Part shown: piece after piece, positions 171 to 53,602 of the stretch
Layout of the letters: each line of letters starts with the position of its first letter
How positions within the stretch are numbered: the first letter of the stretch is position 1
From: a virus
IMG/VR virus record: IMGVR_UViG_3300042691_036129
Coordinates: 1 to 64,000 of that record
Direction: 5' to 3' (one strand)
DNA: 64,000 nt
Notes under the pieces: generated by a model
What the model saw: only the letters and a program-made list of their open reading frames with translations
Databases searched by the model: none
Told to the model about the DNA's origin: nothing
Position numbers and translations under genes: made by a program

Positions 171-737
171 ATGACCAAGAAAATAATAAGATTAACGGAA
201 TCGGAATTTGTGGAAATTGTTAATAGAGTAATTAATGAACAACAGCAAAACTATGATTTTATTTTTTCAAGAAACACATCCTTAACGGAACCTACCAAGG
301 CGGAGGAAATATATTTGGTTAAAAATGGAGATACCTATGATGTTTTTGCGAAAAGACCTAAAAGTAACATCATTGAGAAAACTGAATTTAGTTTACCGAA
401 ACTTTCTGAGTTATCGCTAAGGTGGAATGGTTCCACATTCGAAAATAATGAGACAACCGAAACCGCGAATATGATTGCCTCTTTGATTAAAACTAACTTC
501 GAAAGGAGTCAGGGTAATTGGGTTGTCTATACAAAAGAAAATGGTTTACCTGCTATCGGAAAATTATCTTTGGGTCCTGTGTATGATTTTGATATTTTAG
601 ACAAATACAAAAAAAATAGAAAGAAACTTAAGACTGGAGAATCCTACACCCCAAATGATTATTTCATTGTAAAACAAAACAAGGGTCGTTCTTTAGAAGT
701 TAAAGACGTGGAAGAAGCAAAACCCTACGAAGTTTAA
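171..737 (+). CDS. Hypothetical protein with LTES-type N-terminal element
   Basis: 188 residues. I chose the ATG at 171 over the upstream one at 156 because it begins the recurrent element KKIIRLTESEFVEIVNRVIN, seen in variant form in other proteins of this window, and because the TATTTAT box overlaps the upstream start. LTE|S matches the T4 prohead protease site pattern (I/L-x-E before a small residue), and VINE follows about 14 residues later. The rest is a soluble mixed alpha/beta protein with no family I recognise. The gene overlaps the convergent gene at 734 by four bases. Packaging into the capsid is an inference from the N-terminus. Confidence 0.75.
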   Translation: MTKKIIRLTESEFVEIVNRVINEQQQNYDFIFSRNTSLTEPTKAEEIYLVKNGDTYDVFAKRPKSNIIEKTEFSLPKLSELSLRWNGSTFENNETTETANMIASLIKTNFERSQGNWVVYTKENGLPAIGKLSLGPVYDFDILDKYKKNRKKLKTGESYTPNDYFIVKQNKGRSLEVKDVEEAKPYEV

Positions 738-1123
738 TAATATTGTTGCACCGTTATTTTTGAACCATTAGTATCCCTATTAACAAAAACCATGTATTTT
801 GGTTCCATCAGTGTTGCATTACGAAATAGTGTTTCAATTAAATAGTTTGTATAAGTTTGTGTTCTAGAATCCTTGAAAAGGTAATCACTTTTAACTACAG
901 CTTTTATATTACAGTTCAATAAAATTGGTGAATCATAAATTTCATCAACTCCTTTGATTGAATCAAGTTTAACATTTAGAGAATCCAAACATTCATTTAG
1001 TAAGATTTTTTCTGATTGTGATAAAAATTGATAACAATCTTTCGGATTTTTAAATCCGAGGTTTTGTCCGAAAGTGGAAAAAACAGATATAACAAACAAG
1101 ATAAATAAATAATATTTTTTCAT
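734..1123 (-). CDS. Small secreted protein with Bacteroidota-type signal peptide
   Basis: 129 residues from the ATG at 1123. I prefer this internal start to the one at 1198 because it gives a clean signal peptide: MKK, a hydrophobic core (YYLFILFVISVFS), then TFG and QN, the Gln-after-cleavage pattern common in flavobacterial secreted proteins. There is no lipobox Cys. The mature part contains two Cys (CYQFL and NECLD) plus one in LLNCN and has no family I recognise. Export to the periplasm or surface is predicted; superinfection exclusion or envelope modification would be a guess. Confidence 0.7.
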   Translation of the reverse strand: MKKYYLFILFVISVFSTFGQNLGFKNPKDCYQFLSQSEKILLNECLDSLNVKLDSIKGVDEIYDSPILLNCNIKAVVKSDYLFKDSRTQTYTNYLIETLFRNATLMEPKYMVFVNRDTNGSKITVQQYY

Positions 1124-1142
1124 ATCACACAAAATTAATCGA

Positions 1143-1340
1143 TTATTTTTTATCCACCAATTTTTTTTTACAATATGGACTATTGTAACCGAATACAATA
1201 CATCTCAATGTGTCAACTTCTTGTCTGAGAGGTTCTAAATAGTCACCAAAAAAAGGTTTATGTCCTTTAGAGATTTCTGAGGTAATGTGATATTCAATTT
1301 CTATAATTCGAGAAATTAATTGATTCTTGTTATCAAACAT
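1143..1340 (-). CDS. Small hypothetical protein
   Basis: 65 residues, helical and charged (NQLISRIIEIEYHITSEI), ending CKKKLVDKK. No family recognised. It lies 19 bases upstream of the secreted-protein gene on the same strand, so the two may be co-transcribed. Its start region faces the plus-strand gene at 1369, leaving a short divergent intergenic region. Confidence 0.6.
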   Translation of the reverse strand: MFDNKNQLISRIIEIEYHITSEISKGHKPFFGDYLEPLRQEVDTLRCIVFGYNSPYCKKKLVDKK

Positions 1341-1349
1341 TTTACAGGA

Positions 1350-1356
1350 TATTTAT
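1350..1356 (+). promoter_or_regulatory. TATTTAT box (candidate late promoter)
   Basis: TATTTAT, followed by A, lies 12 bases before the ATG at 1369 in a 28-base divergent intergenic region, in the same orientation relative to its gene as the other boxes. Confidence 0.45.
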
Positions 1357-1368
1357 ATTAAGAAATAT

Positions 1369-2262
1369 ATGAAAAAAAGATTCATTAATGAAGCCACTGG
1401 TTCAGGTAGTTCAGGTAGAATGAAAATACCATTAGTTCTTGCACCCCAAATATGGGAAAAAGAGCCCTTGGAACCTTTCACGAAACCAGTATCGAACTTT
1501 GTTAGTGCGGTGAATGCTTACGATAGTTATGATGGTGAAATGGAAAGGGACCAAACGTTAATAAGAAAAAACGAAACGAAGGCAATAAAAAGAGCTAAAA
1601 AAGCAAAAGAAATGTTTTCACAAAGCGATGATGACGGAAATCCAATAAATGGGTATTCACCCATGGGAAGTGATGCCCTTGGAACACCCAAAGAAGTAAA
1701 AAGAATTGCACATATACCAAAAACTGAATATGAACCAGTTTTAAAAGAGGATTTAGCGGTATGGTTTGGGACAAAAAAGAAACCAAAAGGTAGTAAACAA
1801 CCCAAAGGACCTTGGGTAAATATATGTAGAAAAAAAGAAGGTGGGGGACATCCTCCGTGTGGAAGACCCGAGGCAGATAGTAAGGGATATCCAAAATGTA
1901 GAGCGGCAGGTGTTGCTTCAAAAATGAGTGACTCTCAAAAAAAGAATGCATGTGCTCAAAAAAGGAAAGCTGAGAAAAAAGACCCTAAAATGGGAACAGG
2001 TAACAAACCAACAATGACTTCATATAAACCAAAAAATGAATCTTTGAGGGGATTAATTAAGAGGGTTTTAAAAGAAGAATATAGTCCCAATTTGTTATAT
2101 CCTGTTGAACAGGTTTACCTAATGACAAGTAAAGCCCCATATGAACTGAGAAAACTTGTAAAAAATCTAAAACCAATAGATTGTGTAAACAATAAAGGTG
2201 AAAAGAAAAGTTGTTTCAGAATACCTGAGGTATTATACGTATATTTTAGTGGGAGATACTAA
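1369..2262 (+). CDS. Lys/Cys-rich DUF5872-like protein with capsid-targeting-like N-terminus
   Basis: 297 residues from ATG 1369. The 1327 start is rejected because it overlaps the divergent gene and contains the promoter box. The N-terminus MKKRFINE|ATGSG resembles T4 internal-protein targeting sequences, which end FIAE|A. Around residues 140-215 lies a basic segment with regularly spaced Cys (WVNICRKK, HPPCGRPE, GYPKCRAA, KKNACAQK), similar to the DUF5872-type domain of aquatic phage and virus proteins; its function is unknown, and metal or nucleic-acid binding is plausible. A second element, SLRGLIKRVLKEE, occurs near residue 225. The last 60 residues look like a separate small domain. Confident as a gene, not as to function. 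Confidence 0.75.
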   Translation: MKKRFINEATGSGSSGRMKIPLVLAPQIWEKEPLEPFTKPVSNFVSAVNAYDSYDGEMERDQTLIRKNETKAIKRAKKAKEMFSQSDDDGNPINGYSPMGSDALGTPKEVKRIAHIPKTEYEPVLKEDLAVWFGTKKKPKGSKQPKGPWVNICRKKEGGGHPPCGRPEADSKGYPKCRAAGVASKMSDSQKKNACAQKRKAEKKDPKMGTGNKPTMTSYKPKNESLRGLIKRVLKEEYSPNLLYPVEQVYLMTSKAPYELRKLVKNLKPIDCVNNKGEKKSCFRIPEVLYVYFSGRY

Positions 2263-2696: not shown

Positions 2697-3167
2697 TTAA
2701 CAATATGCACCTGAACATTGTTTTTTTCCATCTAAACCTGGCATTTTTCCTTTACAAACCTGAACGGCATATCCATTTGCATAAGCTGATGGGTAAACTT
2801 TGAATTTACTCTTAGCCGCTGCCTTACCTCTTGCACAAAGTTTAGTTCCTGTTTTTTTTCTACCTTCACTCAAATCTTCGAAATCTAAATAATCTCCCAT
2901 TTTAGATTTTTCATTCATGAAAAAATCAAAAACTTGGTCCATGTTGGTTTTAGCCTCAGTAACGTGGTCATCGGCCCAGTCGTGACCGTTTTGTAAAATT
3001 TCATCTATCATCTGTGGGTCAAACTCCAACAACATTTTACATTGTCTCATAATCTGTTTGAGGTTAGAAAAAAACATGTAATTTTCATGCTCTTGGTATG
3101 ATTCATTGAGAACTTTGTTAACCAACTTGGTTATATCTGATTCGGTTAATTTTACAACTTTAGCCAT
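2697..3167 (-). CDS. CARGKAAAK-domain protein with LTES N-terminal element
   Basis: 156 residues. Residues 1-22 carry the recurrent element in its clearest form (MAKVVKLTESDI, then VLNES), with LTE|S and LNE|S both matching the T4 prohead-protease pattern. A helical middle is followed by a conserved phage C-terminal domain: KLCARGKAAAKSKF, VYPSAYANGYAVQVCKGK, and a CSGAYC tail. That domain is frequent in aquatic phages, basic, four-Cys and of unknown role. The start overlaps the end of the 3160-4668 gene by eight bases, so the two are translationally linked. Packaging with the DNA is an inference. Confidence 0.8.
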   Translation of the reverse strand: MAKVVKLTESDITKLVNKVLNESYQEHENYMFFSNLKQIMRQCKMLLEFDPQMIDEILQNGHDWADDHVTEAKTNMDQVFDFFMNEKSKMGDYLDFEDLSEGRKKTGTKLCARGKAAAKSKFKVYPSAYANGYAVQVCKGKMPGLDGKKQCSGAYC

Positions 3168-8923: not shown

Positions 8924-9670
8924 TTAATTTTTTAATTTATGTTGAATAACCAAGTATAACTTTTTGAATCTTTTGATTGAACTTCTGATTTCTTTGGTGC
9001 TTAGATTTGTCATCTCTCTCAATGACAATAAGATTACATTTTTATTGAATTTATTGTTATCTGCGCCGGAGAAAATACTTTCGTAGTTGTCAAACAAGTC
9101 TATGAGTGCATAACCCAACTTTTTTTCATTTTCATTCAAGTTTTCTACCTCAATAAAATCCTTCAATTCTTTGAGATATTCTACAATCAATACATCTGTT
9201 TCCAAAACGTCATCATCAATTGTGTAAATCATATCTGGACGCTCTTCAATCATTGAGGATATATCCTCATAAGATATTTTTCTGTTCGTCTCTTTTTGGT
9301 CTTTAATTATTTGACCCATCAAATAATTCTTACAAATAGTGCCGAAATAAGAATAAGCTTTTTTGTTTTTAGAGGGTTTGAATTTATCCACCTTTGTCAT
9401 CAGGAAAGAATGAGTGTCAGTGTGTATTTCAATGAAATCCATATCTTTACGATACAATTTGTATCTTCGGATAATAGATGATATCATCTTATCCAAAGGA
9501 GCTCTTAGGAATTCGTTATAGATTTTATTTTTTTCTTCTGAAGATTCGGCTAACAAAAAGTTTCTTACCGCAGTCTCTTCCCTTACGTCAAAATAATTTT
9601 CTTTAACTGCTTTCCTACCCCTTTTTTTCGATGATATATCTTCTGTTAAAGCGGAGAGGGTTTCTTGCAT
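8924..9670 (-). CDS. gp55-like late-transcription sigma factor
   Basis: 248 residues. The central segment KVDKFKPSKNKKAYSYFGTI followed by CKNYLMGQIIKDQKETNRK is the sigma-70 region-2-like core seen in T4 gp55, where the protein binds host RNA polymerase core and reads the late -10 element. The C-terminal part has a helix-turn-helix-like run (SLREMTNLSTKEIRSSIKRF), more than T4 gp55 (185 residues) is known for. It ends 20 bases before a structural operon led by a TATTTAT box. The family call is good; the promoter it recognises is an inference. Confidence 0.78.
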   Translation of the reverse strand: MQETLSALTEDISSKKRGRKAVKENYFDVREETAVRNFLLAESSEEKNKIYNEFLRAPLDKMISSIIRRYKLYRKDMDFIEIHTDTHSFLMTKVDKFKPSKNKKAYSYFGTICKNYLMGQIIKDQKETNRKISYEDISSMIEERPDMIYTIDDDVLETDVLIVEYLKELKDFIEVENLNENEKKLGYALIDLFDNYESIFSGADNNKFNKNVILLSLREMTNLSTKEIRSSIKRFKKLYLVIQHKLKN

Positions 9671-10476
9671 TACGCATTTGGTGATTCATATTTTATGACT
9701 CTGTCGTCAGTAAAGAAATATTCTTTCTTGGCTGTCTGTAGCCAAAACTTAACTTCATCTTCTAACATTTTCGAATCACCATTTTTGTAATTCCAAAATA
9801 TTGAACCCTCTCTAAGGTTAACGTGTTTGTAACCAAGTTTGGGTATAGTCATAATAGAAACTGAATTATACGTAAGTCTCAAAAGGAACTCATAAATAAA
9901 AGTGAGTTTGATTGAGGGTTTGAAACCACCAAAATCATCAATCAAAGATTTTTTGAATACTGACCCTGCGGTTTGGAAGTTCTGATAATCTTGAAGTGTG
10001 TCATTTGTCAAGAATCCCATTTCTTGTGTAAAGTTTGCCGCAAACGTTGCTTCATTTGTGAAACCAGCGAAGGTCCCTTTTTCGTCCACTTCGACAACTA
10101 CTGGTAAGAACATCTGAACATCAGGATATGATTCAGCGTATTTCTTTACATTTTTGAACCAAATATTTGAGTATTCATCATCAAATTCAAAAAGAGAAAT
10201 CCAAGTTGCTTTCGCATTTTTAATTCCGAAGTTGACTTGAGAACAGTAATTAGGTTTTTGACTCCACTCTAATAATTTTACATTCAGATTTTCGAAATTA
10301 TAACTTTTCAAAAATTCTTGAAGTGATTCTTCAATTGAATGAACGATTAGAATTTCCTCTAGCTCTACAGACTGATTTTTGATTGAATTGATTGCTTTAT
10401 TAAAATACTCTTCAAAGTCTTTTGCTTTAGAAGATTTGATAGGTAATATTACAGATACTGAAAATTTGTTTTCCAT
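9670..10476 (-). CDS. Family 2-like glycosyltransferase
   Basis: 268 residues. The start FSVSVILPIKSSKAKDF and INSIKNQSVELEEILIVHS match the GT-A/GT2 nucleotide-sugar fold. WISLFEFDDEYSNIW supplies the acidic DxD-like metal-binding site (FDDE). It probably transfers a sugar from a nucleotide donor in the cytoplasm; donor and acceptor cannot be read. Its start is one base from the next gene of the glycan block, and its stop overlaps the start codon of the sigma gene. Confidence 0.8.
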   Translation of the reverse strand: MENKFSVSVILPIKSSKAKDFEEYFNKAINSIKNQSVELEEILIVHSIEESLQEFLKSYNFENLNVKLLEWSQKPNYCSQVNFGIKNAKATWISLFEFDDEYSNIWFKNVKKYAESYPDVQMFLPVVVEVDEKGTFAGFTNEATFAANFTQEMGFLTNDTLQDYQNFQTAGSVFKKSLIDDFGGFKPSIKLTFIYEFLLRLTYNSVSIMTIPKLGYKHVNLREGSIFWNYKNGDSKMLEDEVKFWLQTAKKEYFFTDDRVIKYESPNA

Positions 10477-10477
10477 A

Positions 10478-11527
10478 TTAGTTTTCTGTTTTTGACATTT
10501 GTTCTTTAAATGAGTTTGCTCTTGTGGTTAGATACGATTGAAATAGTTCAACTGCGTTCTCTTCAAACTCTTGTTTATTTGAGAAAGTTTCTGCTGTTTT
10601 TTGAAATTGTTCGTAAAGTTCAGGTTTGATGTTATCCTCCAACCAATTTTGAACAAAATCTGCTAATACATCAGGGAATAATGTTTGGTCTGTAATCCAT
10701 ATCCCATTGTCTTCGTTCATCCAATCGGGCATCAAATCTGGAATTTTGCCAATACAAGGAACACCACATTTCATGGATTCTAAAGGAAATGTTCCAAATC
10801 CACTCTTATCGTCAATCCAAACGCTGACAAAACATTCTTTCAAAGAGTTTGCAAATTCTGTTTCCGACAACCCTCTTAAGTCTCGGAAGGTAAACCATCT
10901 ATATTGTGGAAACCTGAGATAAAAAGTTTTGATTATGTTCACCGCATCAGATTGTTCTTTGGTGTGAATACCAATAATCGGCATTGGTGGTAAATTTTTT
11001 GGTTGGAACTTATCATTTATATAAGGTTTCAAAACATCAATTGAGGATTGTCTCATTACCTTCTCGATATATTCTTTTTGTTTGAAATTGGTAGTTATAC
11101 ATTTGTAAAATCCAAACTGTGACCACGATTGACCTGGATTGAGAGTTTCTAACATGTGAGCATATTGTTGAGTTATAACAATTTTAGCACATGGCAATTG
11201 TTTAACTTGCTCCATAACGTATCCAAATATCTCGGGGATTACCAAAAAGTCTTCGGGAGAAATTTCTAAATTCTCACCTTCAATTGTTTTATGAGGAATC
11301 TTCATGTATTCCTCACCCATCCAATTTACACCTAAGTAATCTTTCTTTTCATGTAAAATGATTGGATTGAATCCATTATCCAAAAGGGTTTTTGCAACTT
11401 GATAGATAAATCTAACAGAAGCTTTAGCGTTGTTTTTGGTATCTTGAACCAAAAAATAAATTCTGGCTTTTTTGTCTTCCAAATTTTTGATTGAAATTTC
11501 TAATTTTTCTTTTACTGGTGCCTGCAT
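10478..11527 (-). CDS. GT-B (GT4-like) glycosyltransferase
   Basis: 349 residues. The first ARIYFLVQDTKNNAKASVRF domain and the C-terminal SGFGTFPLESMKCGVPCIG motif are the two halves of a GT-B enzyme; the latter is the donor-phosphate/ribose-binding E-x7-E-like region of GT4 family members. Retaining glycosyl transfer is expected. It is the downstream neighbour of an unknown small gene and directly precedes the GT2 gene. Confidence 0.8.
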   Translation of the reverse strand: MQAPVKEKLEISIKNLEDKKARIYFLVQDTKNNAKASVRFIYQVAKTLLDNGFNPIILHEKKDYLGVNWMGEEYMKIPHKTIEGENLEISPEDFLVIPEIFGYVMEQVKQLPCAKIVITQQYAHMLETLNPGQSWSQFGFYKCITTNFKQKEYIEKVMRQSSIDVLKPYINDKFQPKNLPPMPIIGIHTKEQSDAVNIIKTFYLRFPQYRWFTFRDLRGLSETEFANSLKECFVSVWIDDKSGFGTFPLESMKCGVPCIGKIPDLMPDWMNEDNGIWITDQTLFPDVLADFVQNWLEDNIKPELYEQFQKTAETFSNKQEFEENAVELFQSYLTTRANSFKEQMSKTEN

Positions 11528-11528
11528 A

Positions 11529-11810
11529 TCAATAATGATTTATTAATTTTTTGTTTAGTAAGGTATTAAATGCCAATTTGAACGGTATACTAACGTTCTT
11601 CGGATTGTTTAAACCTAACTTATCTTCGAGAGGTTCCTGTTCTGATAGAACAGTTTCTAATAATAATTTTATGAGTTCAAATTTAATAACATTTATTCTC
11701 ATTTCAGATGTTCCTGAAAGTGGCTCGTAGTTTTCATCATTGGACATGTCTAAATAATTTTCGACTTTATCCAAATCGATATAATAAGTTTCACCTAAAA
11801 CACTAATCAT
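11529..11810 (-). CDS. Hypothetical protein
   Basis: 93 residues, acidic and helical (VIKFELIKLLLETVLSEQEP). No family recognised. It overlaps the degenerate HAD gene by eight bases and precedes a glycosyltransferase by one base, so it is part of the same coupled transcript. Confidence 0.6.
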   Translation of the reverse strand: MISVLGETYYIDLDKVENYLDMSNDENYEPLSGTSEMRINVIKFELIKLLLETVLSEQEPLEDKLGLNNPKNVSIPFKLAFNTLLNKKLINHY

Positions 11811-12396
11811 AAAGTTTGTTCAATTTTGATTTCAATTCTCCTATCGACTGAATTGAATGGTTTGTATTTATATCCTTATTGTATGACGTTTCATATTTAA
11901 TGACTTCCACATTAGAAGGATGATTTAATAATAGGTTTGGATTTGCAGTAAGTAAAACGTCTACGCTGTCCCAAAGATAATTTATTGTAGATTCACTATA
12001 AAATTTGACGTTTTCTGTAAGACATCCGAACTTGGATAGAAAAAATAAAGAAGCTGGTTTCGATTTTCCTATTTCGTCAGAAACAACAATAATATCATGT
12101 TCTTCTCTCATGTCCAAATAAAAATCATTAAAATCATTCATACCGTTATATTCCTTAGAACCGGCATGACCGAATATTTCCATAGTATACTCTTTGTATA
12201 AGAAATTATATAATTCATCTTCATCTTTAAATTTAAGATGTTTCATAATTTCTAAGGAATTCAATTCTGAAAAAACTTCACCTTTAGGTTCTTCGTCATC
12301 ATCGAAACGATTTTCTATAAACCACTTCTCATAAACTTCTTGAATCTTTTTTAAGGTGTCTCTTAAAACTCCATTTATTTCGATTCCAATTCTCAT
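11803..12396 (-). CDS. HAD-like protein with catalytic aspartates replaced
   Basis: 197 residues with the layout of 5'(3')-deoxyribonucleotidase-like HAD proteins: a first strand plus loop IGIEINGVLRDT, a VVSDE strand end, and a KSKPASLFFLSKFG helix. Motif I should be DxDGV; here it reads EINGV, so both the nucleophile and the acid/base Asp are missing, and the motif IV position reads TANP rather than DD. Phosphatase activity is therefore unlikely; a binding or regulatory role is inferred. It overlaps the PhoH gene by four bases. Confidence 0.65.
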   Translation of the reverse strand: MRIGIEINGVLRDTLKKIQEVYEKWFIENRFDDDEEPKGEVFSELNSLEIMKHLKFKDEDELYNFLYKEYTMEIFGHAGSKEYNGMNDFNDFYLDMREEHDIIVVSDEIGKSKPASLFFLSKFGCLTENVKFYSESTINYLWDSVDVLLTANPNLLLNHPSNVEVIKYETSYNKDINTNHSIQSIGELKSKLNKLYD

Positions 12397-13127
12397 TGTT
12401 CGTATTTTTTTAATATTTTCGAAATCAATGGATTTCTAACTACATCATAAGGTTTGAATTCGAAAATGCCAACATCTTCAATGTCATCGAATCTTCTAAT
12501 CACGTCCCATAAACCTGTTTGTGTTTTATCTTTATGTCTGTCAAATTGTTCCAAATCCCCTGATATGAAAAATTTCGAATTGAATCCTATTCTTGTCAAT
12601 AATAATTTCATTTGACTCGGAGTTGAGTTTTGAGCTTCTTCGAAAATGAGTATTGAATTATCAATATTCATACCTCTCATATAAGCTAATGCAAAGACCT
12701 CAATAGCTTCAGCTTCCTTAAGTTTTTCTCTCGTCTCTTTACCTATTATTTTATTCAAAAGATAGTATGATGGAAAAATGTATGGGTCTAACTTTTCTTC
12801 AACGCCACCAGGTAAACTACCTAATTTTTCTTCTGCCTCCACCGCCGGTCTGACGATGATAATCTTTTCGAAAGGAGTTAGAGGGTCAGAAAGTAAGTCT
12901 ATTGCACATTTCATTGCAACATAACTTTTACCAACACCTGCTGGTCCTGAACAGATTGTAATTTGATTATTTAAAAGTGTGTCGTAATATATTTTTTGAT
13001 TTTCAGATAAAAATTTTTGTTTGGTTTTCTTTTTTACTATCGAACAAATTAAGTCTTTCTTTGTTTTTATTTGTGCCTCATCTCTCTGAGCGGTCGTTCC
13101 ACTCAACTTTCTCGTCGTTTTTGCCAT
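12393..13127 (-). CDS. phoH: PhoH-like ATPase
   Basis: 244 residues. Walker A GPAGVGKS at residues 61-68, Walker B region ILIFEEAQNS, then SQMKLLLTRIGFNSKFFISG and DLEQFD are diagnostic of PhoH. The family is a RecD-like P-loop ATPase common in aquatic phages; RNA helicase or RNase-linked roles have been proposed and its phage role is unsettled. A basic N-terminal extension of about 40 residues precedes the core. Confidence 0.92.
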   Translation of the reverse strand: MAKTTRKLSGTTAQRDEAQIKTKKDLICSIVKKKTKQKFLSENQKIYYDTLLNNQITICSGPAGVGKSYVAMKCAIDLLSDPLTPFEKIIIVRPAVEAEEKLGSLPGGVEEKLDPYIFPSYYLLNKIIGKETREKLKEAEAIEVFALAYMRGMNIDNSILIFEEAQNSTPSQMKLLLTRIGFNSKFFISGDLEQFDRHKDKTQTGLWDVIRRFDDIEDVGIFEFKPYDVVRNPLISKILKKYEQ

Positions 13128-13143
13128 TGTATAAATTTAATTT

Positions 13144-13530
13144 TTATCTTTTGTAGTTCACATATTCTTTTACTTCTCTTATTTCAGATGAAGTGATTGA
13201 ATTGATTTCGTTTTTCAATTCGAATCTTCTGTCGTTTGTGATATACACTTTTCTAGCCAAATCTATAAACTCACCCTCGAATTTACTTTCAAGTTCCAAA
13301 ACTCTGAGTCTATCCTCAATTTCCCACAGATTTGAGTTTGTGTTTACCAAATCGTGGTATAAATTTTCAATTGTCATATCGTTCAAATATTCTGAAGACA
13401 AGTTGTAAAGTAACTCGAATTCCTTTTTGATGTATTCAAGTTTTTCTGTATTTTTTACTTTTGTCTTTTTTACTTGAAGGATGGAAAGTTTATCAATTAA
13501 CTCTCCGACACTAACAGGGACATTTATCAT
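13144..13530 (-). CDS. DUF6165-like small protein
   Basis: 128 residues. INVPVSVGELIDKLSILQVK, the NLWEIEDRLRVLE segment and IDLARKVYITNDRRFELKN fit the DUF6165-type family, which often sits with LPS and glycosyltransferase genes. It is all-helical with no catalytic motif I can name. Location between the GDP-sugar epimerase and PhoH fits that association. Confidence 0.7.
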   Translation of the reverse strand: MINVPVSVGELIDKLSILQVKKTKVKNTEKLEYIKKEFELLYNLSSEYLNDMTIENLYHDLVNTNSNLWEIEDRLRVLELESKFEGEFIDLARKVYITNDRRFELKNEINSITSSEIREVKEYVNYKR

Positions 13531-13531
13531 T

Positions 13532-14632
13532 TTATTTAATTTTTTTTCTAATTGGATTGTTTATTTCTCTTCTATAAACTGTTTTACCATTGTCAGGTGT
13601 TTCATATATCCAAGGGGTTTGTGTCTCATAGTCATCAACCTGAGATTTAATCCATTGATATGTTTTTCTTATACCAACTTCTAAAGGTTGACTAACTTCC
13701 CATCCAATTTTTTCTCTATATAACTTGTTGTCTGAGTTTCTTCCCTTAACACCCAACGGACACTTGAAACCGTATTTTTTTTCAAACTCTCGACCTGCAA
13801 TATTTTTGACTTTTAATTTCTTACCTGAAATATTGATTGCTAGAATTGCTAATTCGTTGATTGAAACCATTTCTTCACTTCCTATGTTGACAGGTCCGGT
13901 AAAGTCAGACTTCATTAATCTTAACACAGCTTCTACACATTCGTCTACATAAAGAAATGAACGGGTTTGATTACCCTCTCCCCAAACCTCTATCTCATCA
14001 CCGTCTTTTGATTCTGCAGCTTTTCTACACATCGCTGCGGGTGATTTTTCTCTACCCCCTTTCCAAGTTCCTTGAGGTCCAAAAATATTATGAAATCTTG
14101 CTATTCTAACATTGAGTCCATAGTTTCTATGAAATGAAAGGAATACTCTCTCTGAGAATAACTTTTCCCATCCGTATTCCGAATCTGGATTTGCAGGATA
14201 TGCTGAAGATTCTTCACAATTTGGATTGTTGGGGTCTAATTGATTGTGCTCGGGATACATACAAGCAGAAGAAGAGTAAAAAACCTTTCCTACTTTTTTC
14301 TTAACACATTCTCTTGCAACATTGAGATTAATCATTGCTGAGTTATACATTACATCTGCATCGTGTTCTCCTGTGAAAATATACAAAGCACCCCCCATAT
14401 CTGCAGCTAACTGATAAATTTCGTCAACACCTTCTTCGATTACCAATTCCACAACCTTTGGGTCAGTCAAATCACCCAAAATAAATTCATCACATATTTC
14501 ATCTTGGAAAAAGTATTCATGTTTTTTTATATCACATATTCTAACGTGACATCCTTCTTCTTTTAATCTTTTAGCCAAATGCCCCCCTATGAATCCTCCA
14601 CCACCTAAAACAACTACTTTTTTTTGTTTCAT
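13532..14632 (-). CDS. GDP-mannose 3,5-epimerase-like SDR enzyme
   Basis: 366 residues, the usual length for the family. VVVLGGGGFIGGHLAKRL is the NAD Rossmann motif; AADMGGALYIF, SSSACMYPEHNQL, YGWEKLFSERV (YxxxK) and RFHNIFGPQGTWKGGREKSP are hallmarks of GDP-mannose 3',5'-epimerase, which makes GDP-L-galactose and GDP-L-gulose. It would supply an activated deoxy- or hexose sugar for the transferases around it. Exact product specificity cannot be read from sequence alone. Confidence 0.85.
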   Translation of the reverse strand: MKQKKVVVLGGGGFIGGHLAKRLKEEGCHVRICDIKKHEYFFQDEICDEFILGDLTDPKVVELVIEEGVDEIYQLAADMGGALYIFTGEHDADVMYNSAMINLNVARECVKKKVGKVFYSSSACMYPEHNQLDPNNPNCEESSAYPANPDSEYGWEKLFSERVFLSFHRNYGLNVRIARFHNIFGPQGTWKGGREKSPAAMCRKAAESKDGDEIEVWGEGNQTRSFLYVDECVEAVLRLMKSDFTGPVNIGSEEMVSINELAILAINISGKKLKVKNIAGREFEKKYGFKCPLGVKGRNSDNKLYREKIGWEVSQPLEVGIRKTYQWIKSQVDDYETQTPWIYETPDNGKTVYRREINNPIRKKIK

Positions 14633-14633
14633 A

Positions 14634-15449
14634 CTAATTTGTCATTTCATTTATAATTTTATTGATACCCTCTTTCAAGGATATCTCAGGTTTCCAAAAA
14701 TTCAATATGTAAGGGTCGGGTTCGTTCTTTTTATTAAGTTGAACAGAATCTTTTTCGGTTGAAGGAATGACTTCACAAGGAATTGTCTCACGAATAATAT
14801 TTGCAACTTCTAAAATTGTATTCCATTCAAAATTTGTTATGTGTAGGTTTTTTGACCTATCAATCTCATTATATTTTTGTGAAAGAATATACAAACAATT
14901 TGAACAATCCTCAGCATGTAAAAACTGTCTTTCTTCTGTTCCATCGGTCATCATTGTAATTTGACCTTTTTTAGCCTTTAATATGAAATCAGTCACAACG
15001 TGTGATTTTTCCAAATCATGTTCAGGTCCATACACGTTCCAAAACTTGACTGTGACTCCATTCAGTGCAGTTGAGAAAATCTCACCTAAACTTTTACAAA
15101 CTCCATATGGTGAATATGACATATTTGCCATTTGTGATGATGCAAATATAAAAGGTTTGTTATGTTTTTTCAAACTTTCAAAAGTGTATAGTGTTAGCTT
15201 TGTATTATTTTCAATAAATTCATATGTGTGTTGATATTTTTTCAAATATCTTGAACCACCAACATCAAAAGCCAAGAACATCACAAAATCAGATTCCATC
15301 ACCAAATCATCAATGATATTTGGTATTCTTAAATCTTGACTGGGTATTTTAGCGTTATCAAATTCTATTACTGTTTCCCCTTTGTTTCTGAGGAATTTAC
15401 ATAATTCCATTCCGATTTGTCCTTCGGAGCCTAAAACAAGATATTTCAT
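14634..15449 (-). CDS. NAD(P)-dependent nucleotide-sugar epimerase/dehydratase
   Basis: 271 residues. MKYLVLGSEGQIGMELCKFL is a GxxGxxG Rossmann start; FASSQMANMSYSPYGVCKSL holds the SDR Ser and the YxxxK pair; KFWNVYGPEHDLEKSHVV and ERQFLHAEDC are typical of extended SDR sugar epimerases. Substrate is unknown. The start codon overlaps the stop of the GT10 gene, implying co-translation. Confidence 0.82.
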   Translation of the reverse strand: MKYLVLGSEGQIGMELCKFLRNKGETVIEFDNAKIPSQDLRIPNIIDDLVMESDFVMFLAFDVGGSRYLKKYQHTYEFIENNTKLTLYTFESLKKHNKPFIFASSQMANMSYSPYGVCKSLGEIFSTALNGVTVKFWNVYGPEHDLEKSHVVTDFILKAKKGQITMMTDGTEERQFLHAEDCSNCLYILSQKYNEIDRSKNLHITNFEWNTILEVANIIRETIPCEVIPSTEKDSVQLNKKNEPDPYILNFWKPEISLKEGINKIINEMTN

Positions 15450-16282
15450 TAGAATAAATTTTTAAGATAGTTTTCCCACATGTAATCTTCTGCTAGTGGT
15501 AATTCCAACGCTTTCTTGAAATTTCTTTCAATTGCGGGCATCATGGACTGATATTTTTCTACAGTTAAACTTGACAAGTCGGGGTCATCCTCCAAGAATA
15601 TTACTCCTGTTGGGTCGAAGTATTTCTCAACGACCTTCCTCGAACCATAATATACAGGGACAGTTCCCATAACAAAATTATCTGTAAGTTTCTCTGTGAA
15701 GTATGTGTCAGAATTATCATTTTCAATTGAGACTGAAAACATATAATCTCTCAATCCATCCTCTTTATCGTTTATTTGGTGGGGTCTGCCTGAACCGAAT
15801 AGGTCCACTTTATCTTTCAATCTCTCAACCCATTGTAGTCTGTTTTGGTGACCCCTCAACCATCCTTTATTGGATGCAATCATGGATACAAGTTTAGTTT
15901 TTGGGTGTATCATTCTATTTCTTTCCCAAATCCAAGGAACCGCATTTGATATATTGTAAACAAATGGTGCACCCATTTCGACAAGACTATCCATACAAGT
16001 GAATATCCACTTATAATGTTCCCTTGTTTTGTCAATATTATCTAAGAGATATTTGATTGTGTGCTCATTCATCTGTGGTGATTCGAGTAACCATCCAATT
16101 TTTTCTCTTGATGGGTCATTGAATCCCCAATCTTTAATGTAGTTATCAACATATACACTAACTTCGTGTGGTGTTTCAGTTTCTCTAGATAGCCATTGTA
16201 TATACTTTGGCATGTTGCGGTTTGATGAACAATCATATTCACCCCACCAATCTGATACTTTCCTGATTAATTTTTTTTCCAT
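15449..16282 (-). CDS. GT10-like alpha-1,3-fucosyltransferase
   Basis: 277 residues. The C-terminal core FSVSIENDNSDTYFTEKLTD followed by NFVMGTVPVYYGSRKV is the GT10 signature, the GDP-fucose-binding region. The N-terminal half holds acceptor-side sequence (FTCMDSLVEMGAPFVYN). Inverting transfer of L-fucose or a related GDP-sugar is expected. It follows the two TylF-like methyltransferases, which could methylate the sugars added. Confidence 0.82.
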   Translation of the reverse strand: MEKKLIRKVSDWWGEYDCSSNRNMPKYIQWLSRETETPHEVSVYVDNYIKDWGFNDPSREKIGWLLESPQMNEHTIKYLLDNIDKTREHYKWIFTCMDSLVEMGAPFVYNISNAVPWIWERNRMIHPKTKLVSMIASNKGWLRGHQNRLQWVERLKDKVDLFGSGRPHQINDKEDGLRDYMFSVSIENDNSDTYFTEKLTDNFVMGTVPVYYGSRKVVEKYFDPTGVIFLEDDPDLSSLTVEKYQSMMPAIERNFKKALELPLAEDYMWENYLKNLF

Positions 16283-16285
16283 TTT

Positions 16286-16894
16286 TTATCTTTTAATATA
16301 TGCTCCACCATAAGTCCCATTATGGGTTAATTCAAATTGGAGATTATGTTTATTTATCCATTCGTTGAAGGCCTGCCTTTCGTGATGGTCATATTCAGAA
16401 TTCCCACCATGCCAATCATCAAATCTTATGAAAACCTCTGACCATTCACATTTTAACAAAAATTCGAGTGATGATACCGTTGGTTCATATATGTCTACAT
16501 CAACATTACATATAGAAATTTTTCCGATTCCGTAATCTGATGGATGTGTTAATTTGTGAATATCTGAGATAATTGGTTTTATATTTGGCTTACTTGATAG
16601 TTTTTGCAGGGCCTCATCTATTGTTTTTGGAAACTCGCAACCTTTTGCGTTCCATGCACCCAACGCAAAAGAACCTTCCCTCCAATCACTTGAGGATGGT
16701 AATGGTTTGGAACTTTTTCCAAGTCCTTGAAAATGGTCAATTGTGAATACTGTTTTGTCAGGAAACATTGTGGCAAGTTGGATTGCACTTTGACAAGTGC
16801 AAGTTCCAAACTCCAAAACATCACCAATTAGAGAATATTTTTTCGATATCTCTTTTAAAATTTCTAATTTACATGAAAGGTTTGAGTTGTTCAT
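16286..16894 (-). CDS. TylF/MycF-like O-methyltransferase, copy 1
   Basis: 202 residues. GDVLEFGTCTCQSAIQLATM is the SAM-binding motif I; VFTIDHFQGL the motif II acid region; ISICNVDVDIYEPTVSSLEF and IRFDDWHGG carry the metal-binding Asp residues of macrocin-type sugar O-methyltransferases. Likely substrate is a sugar hydroxyl. It overlaps its paralogue's stop by four bases. One oddity is CTCQS in place of GTFTGGS in the SAM loop of the paralogue, so activity may differ. Confidence 0.8.
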   Translation of the reverse strand: MNNSNLSCKLEILKEISKKYSLIGDVLEFGTCTCQSAIQLATMFPDKTVFTIDHFQGLGKSSKPLPSSSDWREGSFALGAWNAKGCEFPKTIDEALQKLSSKPNIKPIISDIHKLTHPSDYGIGKISICNVDVDIYEPTVSSLEFLLKCEWSEVFIRFDDWHGGNSEYDHHERQAFNEWINKHNLQFELTHNGTYGGAYIKR

Positions 16895-17523
16895 CTTGCT
16901 CTTTTTACGTGGACCCCACCTATATAACCACCGTGAGTTATTTGGAAATCATATTTATATTTTTCAATCCACTCTACGAATGCTAAACGTTCATGTTGGT
17001 CGTATTCGGATTCACCTCCGTGCCAATCGTCAAACCTGATGAATATCTCGGACCATTCGCATTTTGTTAAAAACTCTAATGAAGAAACTGCTGGTTCATA
17101 AATGTCAACATCAAGGTTACATATGGAAATTTTTGAGATATTATAATCCGAAGGTTCAGTTAAGTCATGGATATCCGATATAATCATTTCGATATTATTA
17201 TGACCTTTGAATCTATTTTTAAGTTCTTCTATAGATTTTGGAACACTAGAAATATGTTTATACAAAGGATTGTCCAAAGCAAATGCTCTCTCAATCCAAT
17301 CACTATCTTTAGGAACGTTTTTGTTTGTTTTTTCTAACCCTTGAAAATGGTCTATTGTGAAGATGGTTTTATCGGGGAAAAGACCTGAAAGGACTTTGGT
17401 GCTCCCACCTGTGAAAGTTCCAAATTCAATTACATCACCATCCAATTTGAAGTTTCGAGATGTAACAATTTTTTTTACGTCAGATATTTGACAAGATTCG
17501 CTGTTTGGACTTGTATTAATCAT
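16891..17523 (-). CDS. TylF/MycF-like O-methyltransferase, copy 2
   Basis: 210 residues, closely related to the downstream copy over the whole length (shared FPDKT-FTIDHFQGL, DVDIYEP-VSSLEF and IRFDDWHGG segments). The SAM loop is the more standard FGTFTGGSTKVL. The tandem arrangement and similarity indicate a gene duplication followed by divergence in the substrate-side region around residues 60-110. It overlaps the GT11 gene by eight bases. Confidence 0.8.
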   Translation of the reverse strand: MINTSPNSESCQISDVKKIVTSRNFKLDGDVIEFGTFTGGSTKVLSGLFPDKTIFTIDHFQGLEKTNKNVPKDSDWIERAFALDNPLYKHISSVPKSIEELKNRFKGHNNIEMIISDIHDLTEPSDYNISKISICNLDVDIYEPAVSSLEFLTKCEWSEIFIRFDDWHGGESEYDQHERLAFVEWIEKYKYDFQITHGGYIGGVHVKRAR

Positions 17524-18346: not shown

Positions 18347-18347
18347 T

Positions 18348-18995
18348 TTAATTTTTTACATATAGAGTATCACCCCAAACACTATGAAATTGGTGATAGT
18401 ATTTTTTATGAAATCCCTTGGACTCCATTAATGAATCTATTTCTGTGTCAATTTTCTGACCTTCGTATAATTCTACTTTAGCCGTCTCAATTACTATTAT
18501 ATTCGCATTAAAAATTAATTCACTCGAATTAAGTATTTCAAAATCATGTCCTTGTGTATCAAGACTGACTAAATCGAAATTAGACTCTAAATTATTTTCA
18601 GAAATGAATTCATCTATGTTGATTGTATTAACTTGGCAAGTATCAACTTTCTGTATATCTTGATAAAGTTCCAAGTGGATTTTCAAATCCTGAAGGGATG
18701 AACATCCTGGGTTTGTTTTCGATGTGTTTTCAATTATGTTGAAACTAGCAACTCCTTTCTTATTGCTTACCGCATAGGGAAATAATGAGTTTTCAAAATT
18801 ATATCCTGCAAGGTTTTTTTCTAATTGGCTCAATAGTTTTGGGTTTGGTTCGAACCAGTAAACTTTTTTTGGATTGAGTCTGTTGTAAAAAGTTACTTCT
18901 TCACCTAAACACGCTCCGATGTGGAGGATGTTGTCTATTTTTTTTGTTTGGTTAATTTCCAAAATAATGTTTTCTATACTTGAATCAAAACTCAT
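18348..18995 (-). CDS. FkbM-family methyltransferase
   Basis: 215 residues. LHIGACLGEEVTFYNRL and KVYWFEPNPKLLSQLEKNL form the SAM site; INIDEFISEN, LVSLDTQGHDFEIL and IVIETAKVELYEGQ match the FkbM C-terminal signature. Members methylate sugar or polyketide hydroxyls, and glycan blocks commonly carry them. It overlaps the next GT2 gene by four bases. Confidence 0.88.
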   Translation of the reverse strand: MSFDSSIENIILEINQTKKIDNILHIGACLGEEVTFYNRLNPKKVYWFEPNPKLLSQLEKNLAGYNFENSLFPYAVSNKKGVASFNIIENTSKTNPGCSSLQDLKIHLELYQDIQKVDTCQVNTINIDEFISENNLESNFDLVSLDTQGHDFEILNSSELIFNANIIVIETAKVELYEGQKIDTEIDSLMESKGFHKKYYHQFHSVWGDTLYVKN

Positions 18996-21497: not shown

Positions 21498-21507
21498 TAT
21501 CAAAAAT

Positions 21508-22113: not shown

Positions 22114-22114
22114 G

Positions 22115-24689: not shown

Positions 24690-25094
24690 TTATGTTGTTT
24701 GAGGTTGAGTATTATCAAACTTAGCAATCGTAATTACTGATACCATACTCTTATCTCCGTTAAAATTATAATTTGGTTTCGGAGTATTGTAAACTTCACC
24801 TGTTGGTTTCATAGATAGGATTTTATCAAGTCTAAATAATCTCCATCCAGGTAAAGGTTGTTCACCCTTATATCCTGTGTGAGATGCTCCTTCTCTATCC
24901 CAACCTCTCATGACTAAATTACCTGCCTTACTTTTACCTAAAGCCACGGGCTCTATTTCACGAAGTCCTCTACCACCTGGCTCGTCACCATCGTAGTATA
25001 TCACACAAACTTTTCTCCCATTGACAGCATCTTGAACTGTTTGTATGGAAGCAATCTCCGTGAGTAAACCTTTTAGTGTGTTCGTTAGATTCAT
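24690..25094 (-). CDS. Single WYL-like domain protein
   Basis: 134 residues. VQDAVNGRKVCVIYYDGDEP, LREIEPVALGKSKAGNLVMR and WRLFRLDKILSMKPTGEVY follow the WYL-domain pattern of Sm-like beta strands that bind nucleic acid or nucleotide ligands in regulators and defence-linked proteins. There is no helix-turn-helix partner. The N-terminus TNTLKGLLTE|IAS resembles, more weakly, the targeting-like element found in other proteins here. It overlaps its upstream neighbour by one base. Confidence 0.72.
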   Translation of the reverse strand: MNLTNTLKGLLTEIASIQTVQDAVNGRKVCVIYYDGDEPGGRGLREIEPVALGKSKAGNLVMRGWDREGASHTGYKGEQPLPGWRLFRLDKILSMKPTGEVYNTPKPNYNFNGDKSMVSVITIAKFDNTQPQTT

Positions 25095-47490: not shown

Positions 47491-48183
47491 ATGAGATTTA
47501 TTTTAAAAGAATCACAATTGGGTTTTTTATTAGAACAAATATCCTATGACCCAAATGTTGAAATCATACAAAAGTATCTGATAAAAAAGGGGTATGATTT
47601 GGGTAAGTATGGTCCAAACAAAGATGGAGTGGATGGTAAGTTAGGACCTTTGACAAGAGGTGCGATGGAACAAGAGTTTGGTTTGAAAATTGTGAGAAAA
47701 GGTTCCTCATCACAAAAAACATCTGGTGAGTATGATGCAATTTTAGTTGGGGGGTTAGATAATAGGTCTGGTGACTTAAATATAGATTCACAAGTAAGTT
47801 TATTGAAACAGGGGATTGGAACTGAAAAGAATGTTAAAGGTTTTAGGTTTAACACACCATCCTCTACAATTATAGATTTTATCAATAAAAACCCAGGAAT
47901 CCCGATTTATCTTTTCAGTGCGGGATGCAGGAAATCTAATGAGATTTCAAATGTCTTGGGTCAAAATAAAAATAACTTGTTCATCATTGAGCCATATGCT
48001 GCTGGAAGTGAAACGAAAAATAATGTAAGAAATGCTGTGAACAACGGAGTTCCTGCTTCAAATGTTTTTGTTGGAAACTCAGTCGGGAGAGGACAAGGGA
48101 TTGTGATTGGGGCGAGTTCATCCAAGTCAGACTCTCATTGGAATGCACTTAAAACTGTGGGTTCAATGACTAAAAATAATTAA
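47491..48183 (+). CDS. Peptidoglycan-binding-domain protein with targeting-like N-terminus
   Basis: 230 residues. Residues 23-65 (VEIIQKYLIKKGYDLGKYGP, VDGKLGPLTRGAMEQEFG) are a PG-binding-1-like domain. MRFILKE|SQLGFLLEQ at the start resembles the element shared with other small proteins here. The C-terminal region (AILVGGLDNRSGD, GIPIYLFSAGCRKSNEIS, GVPASNVFVGNSVGRGQG) is an alpha/beta fold I cannot name. A role in wall contact during infection or lysis is inferred. It is sandwiched between neck and sheath-stabiliser genes. Confidence 0.68.
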   Translation: MRFILKESQLGFLLEQISYDPNVEIIQKYLIKKGYDLGKYGPNKDGVDGKLGPLTRGAMEQEFGLKIVRKGSSSQKTSGEYDAILVGGLDNRSGDLNIDSQVSLLKQGIGTEKNVKGFRFNTPSSTIIDFINKNPGIPIYLFSAGCRKSNEISNVLGQNKNNLFIIEPYAAGSETKNNVRNAVNNGVPASNVFVGNSVGRGQGIVIGASSSKSDSHWNALKTVGSMTKNN

Positions 48184-52500: not shown

Positions 52501-52727
52501 ACCAAGTAGTAAGACAACAATTCTTGGATAGTGTGAACCCAATCCTTGATTCAATTAGAAGAGATAGAGGTCTATATGATTTCCGTGTGACAGTATCTTC
52601 TTCACCTGAAGATTTAGACAGAAACACATTAACAGGAAAGATTTACTTAAAACCAACGAAGGCTCTCGAATTCATAGATATTGAATTCTTTATTACACCA
52701 ACAGGAGCTTCGTTCGAAAATATCTAA
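49503..52727 (+). CDS. Tail sheath protein (gp18-like)
   Basis: 1074 residues. The start QKVYVSPGVYTSETDLSFVA and GLVGETIKGPAFEPIFITNY are the sheath N-terminal domain; the C-terminal domain (FPWFASAGYTRGLVNSIKAR, IATFADVGTVIWGNKTLQ, LNRLNVRRLLLQARKLISAV) is diagnostic. T4 gp18 has 659 residues, so about 400 residues of outward-facing insertions are present in the middle (about 120-700). Contracts to drive the tube through the cell envelope. A separate promoter and terminator flank it. Confidence 0.93.
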   Translation: MATAQANQKVYVSPGVYTSETDLSFVAQSVGVTTLGLVGETIKGPAFEPIFITNYDEFQAYFGGSEPVKFVNTQIPKYEAAYIAKSYLQQSNQLFVTRILGLSGYDAGPSWSIKVVANVDPTTVGFNPATATPWVVNFTGSSTGNTISFLNSFPSQINNSLTSLYRMSDGSTSNIQSDILGFVKDVLTTNSLSSTTANVYGAIPESDYYSLSTGRNLVNVYNCDNINYPLNDLTSGLNDSWFYANFNNYSNDNYSGYSMDYIVSSIATGASNSFSGSISGNVYTWSGTAFSEYNNMVVATIRSRGISLFENSAASNAHGPIYEVNSGGTVSGLSALTMVCSGQYSGVTINPYETFLLSGITKDNDNFSFEVSLSALSSKFITKVLGTDNFGKSRQEVPVFVEEVYPASLAYAYNQSYIRGLDCQLIGLPGARTEDPSSIAYNVEKYQSPMTPFLVSELRGNKVYKLFRFISISDGDAANVEVKVSIANLSFNNMTFDVLVRNFFDTDANPVVIEKFTNCTMDPASNNFVAKKIGSSNGEFALISKYVMVEMSEEAPIDALPCGFYGYTQREYASVSNPSPVPKFKTKYYFPGEVIYNPPFGAATGGDNLVESPGDIVRRSYLGFSTQFGIDESFLSYKGKQNPPSWVIAPIPVEGATWNYLSKGFHMDSGATVVTIGNVYQTSGTPAFECGVADFRFDPETQENPYYFIYSRKYTVCFAGGFDGWDIYREYRTNQDRFQLGASGYLAGASASSRYPSATGQGLFKRIVVENNTQDFANTDYYAYLLGILTFRNPEATNINVFATSSIDYYNNSNLVEEAIDMIQFQRADSVYIATTPDYNMYTPDGTNSLDIIYPQEAVDNLDNTGIDSNYTSTYYPWILVRDTVNNTQIYLPPTGEVCRNLALTDNISFPWFASAGYTRGLVNSIKARLKLTQEDRDTLYQGRINPIATFADVGTVIWGNKTLQVADTALNRLNVRRLLLQARKLISAVAVRLLFEQNDQVVRQQFLDSVNPILDSIRRDRGLYDFRVTVSSSPEDLDRNTLTGKIYLKPTKALEFIDIEFFITPTGASFENI

Positions 52728-52734
52728 TAAAAAC

Positions 52735-52760
52735 GGGGGGACAAAATCCCCCCATTTTTT
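52735..52760 (+). terminator. Rho-independent terminator after the sheath gene
   Basis: GGGGGG (52735-52740) pairs with CCCCCC (52748-52753) around ACAAAAT, followed by A and six T's. The unusually GC-rich stem in an AT-rich genome implies strong termination, isolating sheath expression from the next gene. Confidence 0.93.
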
Positions 52761-52771
52761 AGCCATACTAA

Positions 52772-53602
52772 ATGAGAAAAGAGATTACAGAAGGTTTCAA
52801 AGACGAGAAAACCCCGGATTTAAAATATTACGCTTTCGACTGGGATGACAATATTGTGCACATGCCGACAAAGATAATTCTGAAAGATTCAGACGGAGAA
52901 GAGGTAGGTATGTCAACCGAAGATTTTGCAGAATACCGACACATTGTAGGAAAAGAAGATTTTGAATATAACGGACATAAGATTGTTGGGTTCGGTGACA
53001 ATCCGTTTAGAAACTTTCGAACTGAAGGAGACAAAGACTTTTTGATTGATTCTATGCAAGCAAAGAAGGGACCAGCTTTTGATGACTTTAGAGAAGCAAT
53101 AAATAATGGTTCAATATTTGCAATAATCACTGCAAGGGGTCATAATCCCGAAACCCTGAAACAATCCGTCTACAATTATATTGTAAATGATTTCGGCGGG
53201 ATATCCAAAGATGAACTAATCAAAAATTTAAAAAAATATAGGAACTTTACAGGTGAAGAAGATTTATCTGATAAAGAACTTATCGACCTTTATTTGGATT
53301 TAAACAAATACCATCCCGTTTCTTTTGGAGATGAGTCGGGTGCCACAAATCCCGAGGAGGCGAAGGTTAGAGCGATGAATGATTTTGTGGACTACATTAA
53401 GAATATGGCAGCATTACTTAATAAAAGAGCATGGTTAAAAAACGACATAGGAAACAAATTTACACCATCTAAACCATCAATTGGTTTTTCAGACGATGAC
53501 CCAAGAAATGTAGAAGTAATGAGAAAAGCCTTTAAAGATAAACCAGATAATTTAGTTAAAACATATTCTACTGCTGGAGGAACTAAGAAGGAAGTGCAAT
53601 AA
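52772..53602 (+). CDS. HAD-superfamily phosphatase-like protein
   Basis: 276 residues. YYAFDWDDNIVHMPTKI (motif I), FAIITARGHNPETL (motif II with Thr) and SIGFSDDDPRNVEVM (motif IV) are intact, so a phosphatase is plausible. Residues 165-200 form a helical cap-like insert. The N-terminus MRKEITE|GFK fits the I-x-E|G targeting-like pattern. It lies between the sheath terminator and the tube promoter with no clear box of its own. Related genes are common beside tail genes in aquatic T4-like phages. The substrate is unknown. Confidence 0.75.
   Translation: MRKEITEGFKDEKTPDLKYYAFDWDDNIVHMPTKIILKDSDGEEVGMSTEDFAEYRHIVGKEDFEYNGHKIVGFGDNPFRNFRTEGDKDFLIDSMQAKKGPAFDDFREAINNGSIFAIITARGHNPETLKQSVYNYIVNDFGGISKDELIKNLKKYRNFTGEEDLSDKELIDLYLDLNKYHPVSFGDESGATNPEEAKVRAMNDFVDYIKNMAALLNKRAWLKNDIGNKFTPSKPSIGFSDDDPRNVEVMRKAFKDKPDNLVKTYSTAGGTKKEVQ

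Follow-up and report, generated by a model that had tools for sequence, protein, structure and literature searches.

In phage T4, the prohead protease gp21 cuts after L/I-X-E, the propeptides of internal proteins are 10-19 residues long, and the protein Alt is cut at both ends (available sections of PMC9026906). In the phiKZ-type giant phages SPN3US, 201phi2-1 and phiKZ, many head proteins are cut after Glu and ejected with the DNA, their propeptides often exceeding 100 residues and their sites reading S/A-x-E (available sections of PMC5694885 and PMC9026906). Here we describe N-terminal leaders in a 64,000-nucleotide stretch of viral DNA (positions 1 to 64,000 of IMG/VR record IMGVR_UViG_3300042691_036129, hereafter the window) and in its relatives. 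Unlike the phiKZ-type propeptides, these leaders are short, repeated and exchangeable, and they resemble the T4 capsid targeting sequence (CTS) in that a short N-terminal leader is common to unrelated proteins, ends in L/I-x-E, and is accompanied by an S77 protease in relatives. From these sequence features, we think it probable that the leaders form a T4-CTS-like targeting and cleavage system, comprising several families carried by unrelated proteins. Throughout, an arrow marks a known or candidate cleavage boundary.

A first-pass annotation had proposed one recurrent element (LTES or INE) at the start of six proteins of the window. All six N-termini read as it gave them: M171 MTKKIIRLTESEFVEIVNRVINEQ, M1369 MKKRFINEATG, 3167 (minus strand) MAKVVKLTESDITKLVNKVLNES, 47491 MRFILKESQLGFLLEQ, 52772 MRKEITEGF and 25094 (minus strand) MNLTNTLKGLLTEIAS. 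The proteins at 171 and 3167 indeed share one leader of 22-23 residues, M.KK[IV][IV][KR]LTESDL.RLVK[RK]V[IL]xE↓Q, which we call type A and modeled with element hidden Markov models (HMMs). The 171 gene adjoins the capsid gene directly on its downstream side. The type A features of the window are as follows:

171..239, plus strand: MTKKIIRLTESEFVEIVNRVINE, the type A leader with which the 171-737 protein starts, scoring 47-51 bits against the element HMMs, predicted cleavage after E23
171..737, plus strand: putative cargo protein, no match in Pfam or PHROGs at E<=0.001
2697..3167, minus strand: putative cargo protein with a CARGKAAAK region, matching phrog_27331 (unknown function, E 6e-16)
3102..3167, minus strand: MAKVVKLTESDITKLVNKVLNE, the type A leader with which the 2697-3167 protein starts, scoring 45-48 bits against the element HMMs, predicted cleavage after E22

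The element recurs far beyond the few proteins first reported. In three near-full relatives, an initial pattern for the element falls within the first 80 residues of 14 of 441, 11 of 423 and 10 of 425 open reading frames (ORFs) and at later positions in 1, 2 and 0; an HMM search of these genomes at E<=1 gave 13, 10 and 10 copies, some of which, though few, are marginal. Across 5209 ORFs from 291 partly overlapping loci, an HMM built from 22 seeds reaches at least 15 bits, the score at which a place was counted, in 276 places, 260 of them inside the first 45 residues, and a single place scores 10-15 bits. These loci were gathered via the element itself, a tail gene and the 3167 gene, and are therefore a sample and no census. 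Blast sorts the bodies of the 275 type A carriers (196 distinct) into 96 clusters; the 3167 family forms one with 62 members, and 76 are singletons. Each of 23 long contigs holds 1-14 copies (E<=0.001), and a scan of IMG/VR for the element yielded at least 286 confirmed among the matches listed. One scan of bacterial genomes returned 61 pattern matches, of which the two confirmed were both contigs of metagenome-assembled genomes, so that at the sensitivity of that scan there is no sign of a host feature. A type A-like stretch off the extreme N-terminus was also seen at residues ~22-40 of the protein encoded at L178:566-1444 (minus strand), adjoining the terminase gene (LSESQIDILVDRFVISEQ; LTESQIDVLYSKLINEQ in the relative G004).

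Among 96 representatives, E9 is invariant, and M1, K3, L7, T8, D11, L12 and E22 are each conserved in at least 90%. In a subset of 88, picked by a pattern loosely fixing positions 7-11 and hence conserved there partly by selection (the table of all 96 is free of that pick), Thr8 is written with all four codons and Ser10 mainly with TCN. Because synonymous codons vary at fixed residues, the LTESDL element is selected as protein and not as DNA. In the same subset position 22 is Glu in 87, position 21 varies freely, P3 is I, V, L or M in 88 of 88, and conservation ends at Q23. The resulting I-x-E end with its free middle residue follows the gp21 rule as given in the available sections on T4. The first-pass annotation placed the cut at LTE↓S; the boundary most likely lies after E22, because conservation continues through the helix and stops there. 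We regard LTE↓S as less likely for the main boundary, although a first cut at that place may occur. The LTES start is thus real, but the second half of the element and its nearly invariant final Glu had been missed, as had a C-terminal LxE in the 1369 protein described below. In the 3167 family, E9 and E22 are invariant in 45 aligned sequences, and a low-confidence structure model places a helix at 9-22; the models made of two proteins of the window were of poor quality (mean pLDDT 57 and 59).

The codon usage also bears on a nucleic-acid-level effect, in which a shared promoter and start region would be copied between genes with the peptide incidental. Leader genes do often sit in tandem runs, and they share an upstream TATTTAT: in G001, G003 and G004 (L172-L223), 49 of 84 leader genes have it within 70 bases, against 259 of 1203 other genes, and it starts mostly 11-25 bases before the start codon. 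Within 100 bases it precedes 20 of 31 structural genes and 2 of 24 genes of replication or metabolism, and it may be a candidate late promoter of the clade; a T4-type TATAAATA upstream of genes showed no enrichment. Since residues are fixed while synonymous codons vary, and since sheath, tube and portal genes with the same TATTTAT have no such leader, we consider a nucleic-acid effect very improbable.

The protease that such leaders would need is encoded by most long relatives. Of two sets of long relatives, 10 of 11 and 16 of 23 have an S77 protease (PF03420) at 77-88 bits (cut-off 27). Counted as distinct records these are 25 of 33, and they include 7 of 7 searched records of at least 282 kb (two nearly identical). 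It corresponds to phrog_207, the PHROG head maturation protease (E 6e-43), and sits in the head gene cluster of G001, a relative of 321,139 bases. The gp21-type protease that the first-pass annotation expected was thus found in relatives but not in the 71,215-base record of the window; in the 321 kb relative it lies ~4 kb past the point that corresponds to window position 1. The capsid protein, like T4 gp23, has a propeptide of ~60 residues ending in [LI]xE↓A; the end reads LINE↓A in 9 of 9 distinct anchored N-termini and FLTE↓A in T4 gp23. In 56 of 67 sequences, a scaffold-like protein (G001:105182-106759) carries KESLSEQ or something close to it, the pattern being unmatched in 11.

To look for leaders blind, 30-residue segments were compared between proteins of non-homologous bodies at N-terminal, mid and C-terminal positions. 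At a score of at least 45, the 1163 proteins compared (873 in the mid comparison) gave 754 N-terminal pairs versus 28 mid and 50 C-terminal, and at 52 or more the three genomes gave 82, 57 and 31 N-terminal pairs, 1, 0 and 3 mid, and 0, 1 and 0 C-terminal. The same test on T4 recovered as its sole N-terminal pair IPII/IPIII, the known CTS, with 0 mid pairs and 2 C-terminal ones at 45 or more (1 at 52 or more). The groups recovered were D (MKYIITES, 33 proteins), A (29), G (MNLxENIxRIKEVMG, 12), B (KIRHIQEAN, 5) and small ones. In a further count of MKYIITES starts, made by pattern, the pattern itself demanded E or Q. One group of six proved to be a structural-protein start without leader features and was set aside. 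The family consensuses are LTESDL...VIxE (A), KIRHIQEANxRLEKRLxxE (B), MKYIITES (D), MNLxENIxRIKEVMG..[LIV]xE (G) and short leaders such as MKKNRISE. Carriers assigned to these classes make up 34 of 441, 29 of 423 and 21 of 425 ORFs in the three genomes, with short leaders of the 1369 and 52772 kind uncounted; T4 differs in having a single test-found pair against these several families and 21-34 carriers per genome. A mostly minus-strand region of G001 (~183-242 kb, L181-L184) contains the majority of that genome's A, D, G and B leader genes and resembles a cargo island. In the Flavobacterium isolate immuto (MW353176), whose leaders belong to another family, the test found 11 pairs among 14 proteins, including a four-protein leader FDLKKFLVENKLTxNSxxLxE (QQO91921, QQO92096, QQO92111 and QQO92112) and two pairs of other starts; four of the 14 are Sec signal-like and two tail fibre-like.

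A single element common to all six window proteins is therefore rejected, there being at least three leader kinds among them: the 47491 leader is type D, and those at 1369 and 52772 are short, variable and basic. By sequence, the uniting feature is the end [L/I/V]-x-E. The remaining leaders of the window are these:

1369..1392, plus strand: short leader MKKRFINE↓ of the 1369-2262 protein, [ILV]xE kept in orthologues
2035..2076, plus strand: second half-element NESLRGLIKRVLKE in the 1369 protein, ending at a candidate boundary, its L and E invariant in the alignment
25056..25094, minus strand: weak candidate leader MNLTNTLKGLLTE on a WYL-domain protein (PF13280, E 1.3e-4)
47491..47535, plus strand: MRFILKE↓SQLGFLLE↓, a type D leader that the blind test placed in the MKYIITES group, carried by a peptidoglycan-binding-like protein
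52772..52792, plus strand: short leader MRKEITE↓ on a HAD-like protein, [ILV]xE kept in orthologues

In the 1369 family, P1 is Glu in 39 of 39 distinct anchored N-termini and P3 is I, L or V in 35, 3 and 1, the remainder being variable; E8 is invariant across 42 aligned sequences. The second LxE of this family is nearly C-terminal in most orthologues shown, which parallels the cutting of T4 Alt at both ends as described in the available sections on that protein. The window protein carries an extra ~60-residue C-terminal domain (2077-2262) past this conserved LxE, where most shown orthologues end; the domain is among the best-predicted parts of a poor structure model and is possibly a second protein released through cleavage. 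For the 52772 family, the column table came from a pattern that required E, so shuffles were used in its place: 51 of 55 distinct orthologous N-termini have [LIVFM]xE ahead of the body, versus 24.9 (standard deviation 3.2) in shuffles. The 47491 protein matches PF01471 at E 6e-4, below the cut-off. The candidate leader at 25094, already called a weaker match, ends in LLTE, LICE and LICE across three genomes. Across the window, [LI]xE[SAGTI] falls within the first 30 residues of 15 of 63 ORFs versus 5.4 (standard deviation 2.3) in shuffled sequences, 15 being reached in 1 of 1000 shuffles, and within the first 13 residues of 9 of 63 versus 2.0 (1 of 1000). The pattern by itself is weak, several of the 15 looking chance-like by eye (17516, 36590, 46519).

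Some homologous bodies carry different leaders, and in the clearest cases the change falls at the terminal Glu. Because the queries of the homologue search began at residue 26, junctions were read on full alignments of five pairs. In one clear exchange, ..KKVIAE↓TGTDSKVRF versus ..RLVENVITE↓TGTDSKVRF, identity is 7/19 in the leader and 72/76 after it; in the other, ..KKVMYE↓Q versus ..NYLSE↓Q, it is 4/19 and 95/111. A consistent pair (ILIE↓T versus ILLE↓A; 4/19 and 63/111) resumes homology a few residues on. Fourteen clusters had an apparently untagged homologue; in four of these the leader changes at a junction that can be read (2 clear, 2 consistent), and the other ten comprise five with another leader or architecture and no readable junction, two without a recognisable leader, two truncated pieces and one with the same leader below threshold. 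With type A carriers excluded, [LIV]xE[SAGTQN] is 1.6-2.0 times denser in the first 40 residues than past residue 120, and a control pattern with D, Q or K replacing E shows no rise there.

These junctions speak to whether the leaders might instead be uncut docking helices for another assembly (tail or baseplate, replication compartment, host complex), the final Glu being a helix-end or binding residue. In favour of this, the element can be read as a single amphipathic helix, a helix at 9-22 is predicted at low confidence, and the 47491 and 52772 genes have tail genes around them (sheath 49503, tube 53695). However, leader families with no relation to one another have come to end alike, in [LIV]xE with variable P2, leaders change at that Glu in the two clear cases, and the window's two type A genes are no more than ~3 kb downstream of the capsid gene; uncut docking helices thus seem to us an unlikely explanation. 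Sec or lipoprotein-type secretion signals would share the basic start followed by hydrophobic residues, but by eye the leaders have no hydrophobic core and carry charged residues every few positions, and Sec-like starts show up separately in the immuto list. We find a secretory role scarcely credible.

Several observations weigh against a T4-like system. P1' is Q in 57 of 88 type A leaders, where T4 gp21 sites have A, G or S. As Q is unusual for gp21, the leader proteins might be packaged but cut by another protease or left unprocessed; we give this little credence, since the encoded S77 protease and the capsid LINE↓A obey the same [LI]xE rule and the scaffold-like gene has LSE then Q, like the Q after most type A leaders. 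PF03420 is missing from 8 of 33 long records, all shorter than 165 kb, and the capsid and terminase genes stand without an upstream TATTTAT. Two of the exchange pairs are poor: IISE↓K versus LINE↓K is consistent but weak (7/19 in the leader, 54/111 after), and ILKE↓Q versus VIQE↓Q is ambiguous (3/19 and 31/111). One cargo-like homologue, a thioredoxin, has no leader. Depletion of sites in the bodies, expected if bodies meet the protease, is mixed: the [LI]xE ratio is 0.85 in the 96 representatives but, in the three genomes, 1.26 for 30 type A and 1.05 for 36 type D proteins against 1.15 for the remainder. The element HMM has no match in Mel-JY01 and immuto, the two isolates searched (T4 and Atu_ph07 were outside that search), and no virion proteome was found for any phage with an LTESDL leader.

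Wider searches gave little. A tblastn comparison of the two window leaders and the consensus against 50,697 phage records returned one weak match (E 6) and nothing else, and the uncultured LR756508 gave one weak HMM match (E 0.043); at the sensitivity used, no isolate with an LTESDL leader was found. A literature search for LTES-type leaders found none, the 'capsid targeting sequence' papers covering, in their available parts, T4, T4-based design, P1, P22 and SPN3US.

In the sequence features tested, the leaders resemble the T4 CTS in behaviour, except that those of the LTESDL type exceed 10-19 residues. The LTESDL leader differs in being 22-23 residues long, with a long helix and mostly E↓Q; MRFILKESQLGFLLE (15 residues) would fit that range, and the shortest leaders (7-8) fall below it. 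The T4 leader MKTYQEFIAE bears by eye no resemblance to these leaders, and homology is not claimed. The T4-like targeting leaders that the first-pass annotation proposed are thus partly supported, by the S77 protease, LINE↓A, leader changes at [LIV]xE and the blind recovery of the T4 CTS, with several families in place of one.

Under a CTS-like system, we infer docking, cleavage, packaging and delivery to the host as follows. The amphipathic N-terminal helix would dock its carrier on the scaffold core during prohead assembly, the leader tag would be cut off after loading into the head, and the proteins would then be delivered into the host. Recombination near the gene start would exchange leaders between bodies. 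More tentatively, the leader families could be distinct addresses, each docking on a different core component or assembly step and so giving separate cargo sets in set amounts, with exchange reflecting selection that re-addresses cargo. Such sets might conceivably comprise cell-wall enzymes, redox and protease-like proteins, and anti-defence proteins, an assignment we hold just as loosely. If leaders are addresses, ~5-8% of ORFs would encode effectors that are packaged and can be picked out by their sequence alone, and cleavage of 1369-type proteins at either end would set free a second protein.

Phage-delivered proteins are normally learned through virion proteomics, which is missing for uncultured phages. 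If the leaders do serve as capsid-targeting signals, sequence could tell which proteins are delivered across an entire clade of huge, uncultured Bacteroidetes phages; most of these proteins have no known function, and anti-defence and takeover proteins are likely to be among them. The CTS idea would become testable outside T4, including in immuto, and would offer new packaging tags.

Comparable arrays may exist elsewhere. In the first 50 kb of Agrobacterium phage Atu_ph07, the blind test found two pairs of M[KR]W.QL.E at 45 or more, and eleven consecutive genes start M[KR][WL].[QD]L.E (MF403008 39484-50592; L315, L316; positions 53-63 of the coding sequence (CDS) list). This array lies inside the CDS 31-76 region (numbering approximate, maybe a few off), 29 proteins of which were found in virions by mass spectrometry (available sections of PMC6102473), and an S77 protease is present. 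It differs in its 8-residue leader of another sequence, and the virion proteins, in those sections, are known for the region and not for each array gene. Bodies of the array have YRG motifs recalling, by eye, ADP-ribosyltransferases, and two such bodies gave no Pfam match.

As to the cargo itself, most bodies are of unknown function. Among the 96 representatives, Pfam (E<=0.01) matched PG_binding (2), thioredoxin, YkuD and DUF5872 (1 each) and weak singletons, and PHROGs matched endolysins, one anti-restriction protein (E 9e-5), a ParB C-terminal, HNH and a homing endonuclease. One further protein with an LTE-type start is C39-peptidase-like.

The source record is a 71,215-base IMG/VR fragment. 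Its tube and 3167 proteins, used as queries, are 100% identical to parts of ~321 kb records, and window position p corresponds to ~103,439 minus p on G001. The capsid gene lies at the window edge:

1..104, plus strand: 3' end of the major capsid protein gene (gp23-like), translation ending VRTFDLKELR and stop, the remainder outside the record

The same ending is the C-terminus of a 603-residue protein at G001:103335-105146 (minus strand) that matches phrog_138, a major head protein. Beyond the window start, the G001 head cluster is T4-like, with capsid protein, scaffold-like acidic protein, head maturation protease, portal and large terminase. On the opposite strand inside this cluster lies a bS21 ribosomal protein gene (L177:13711-13896, plus strand; G001:108711-108896), and in bS21 huge Bacteroidetes phages the bS21 gene likewise runs opposite to the terminase, portal, protease and capsid genes around it (available sections of PMC9723584, which make no mention of leaders). 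Because this gene order is shared, the window, part of a T4-like phage with full relatives of ~321 kb, matches the bS21 'huge phages' of freshwater Bacteroidetes. Elsewhere in the window, 9670-24024 is a minus-strand gene run that includes, by eye, glycosyltransferase-, sugar-nucleotide-enzyme- and methyltransferase-like proteins.

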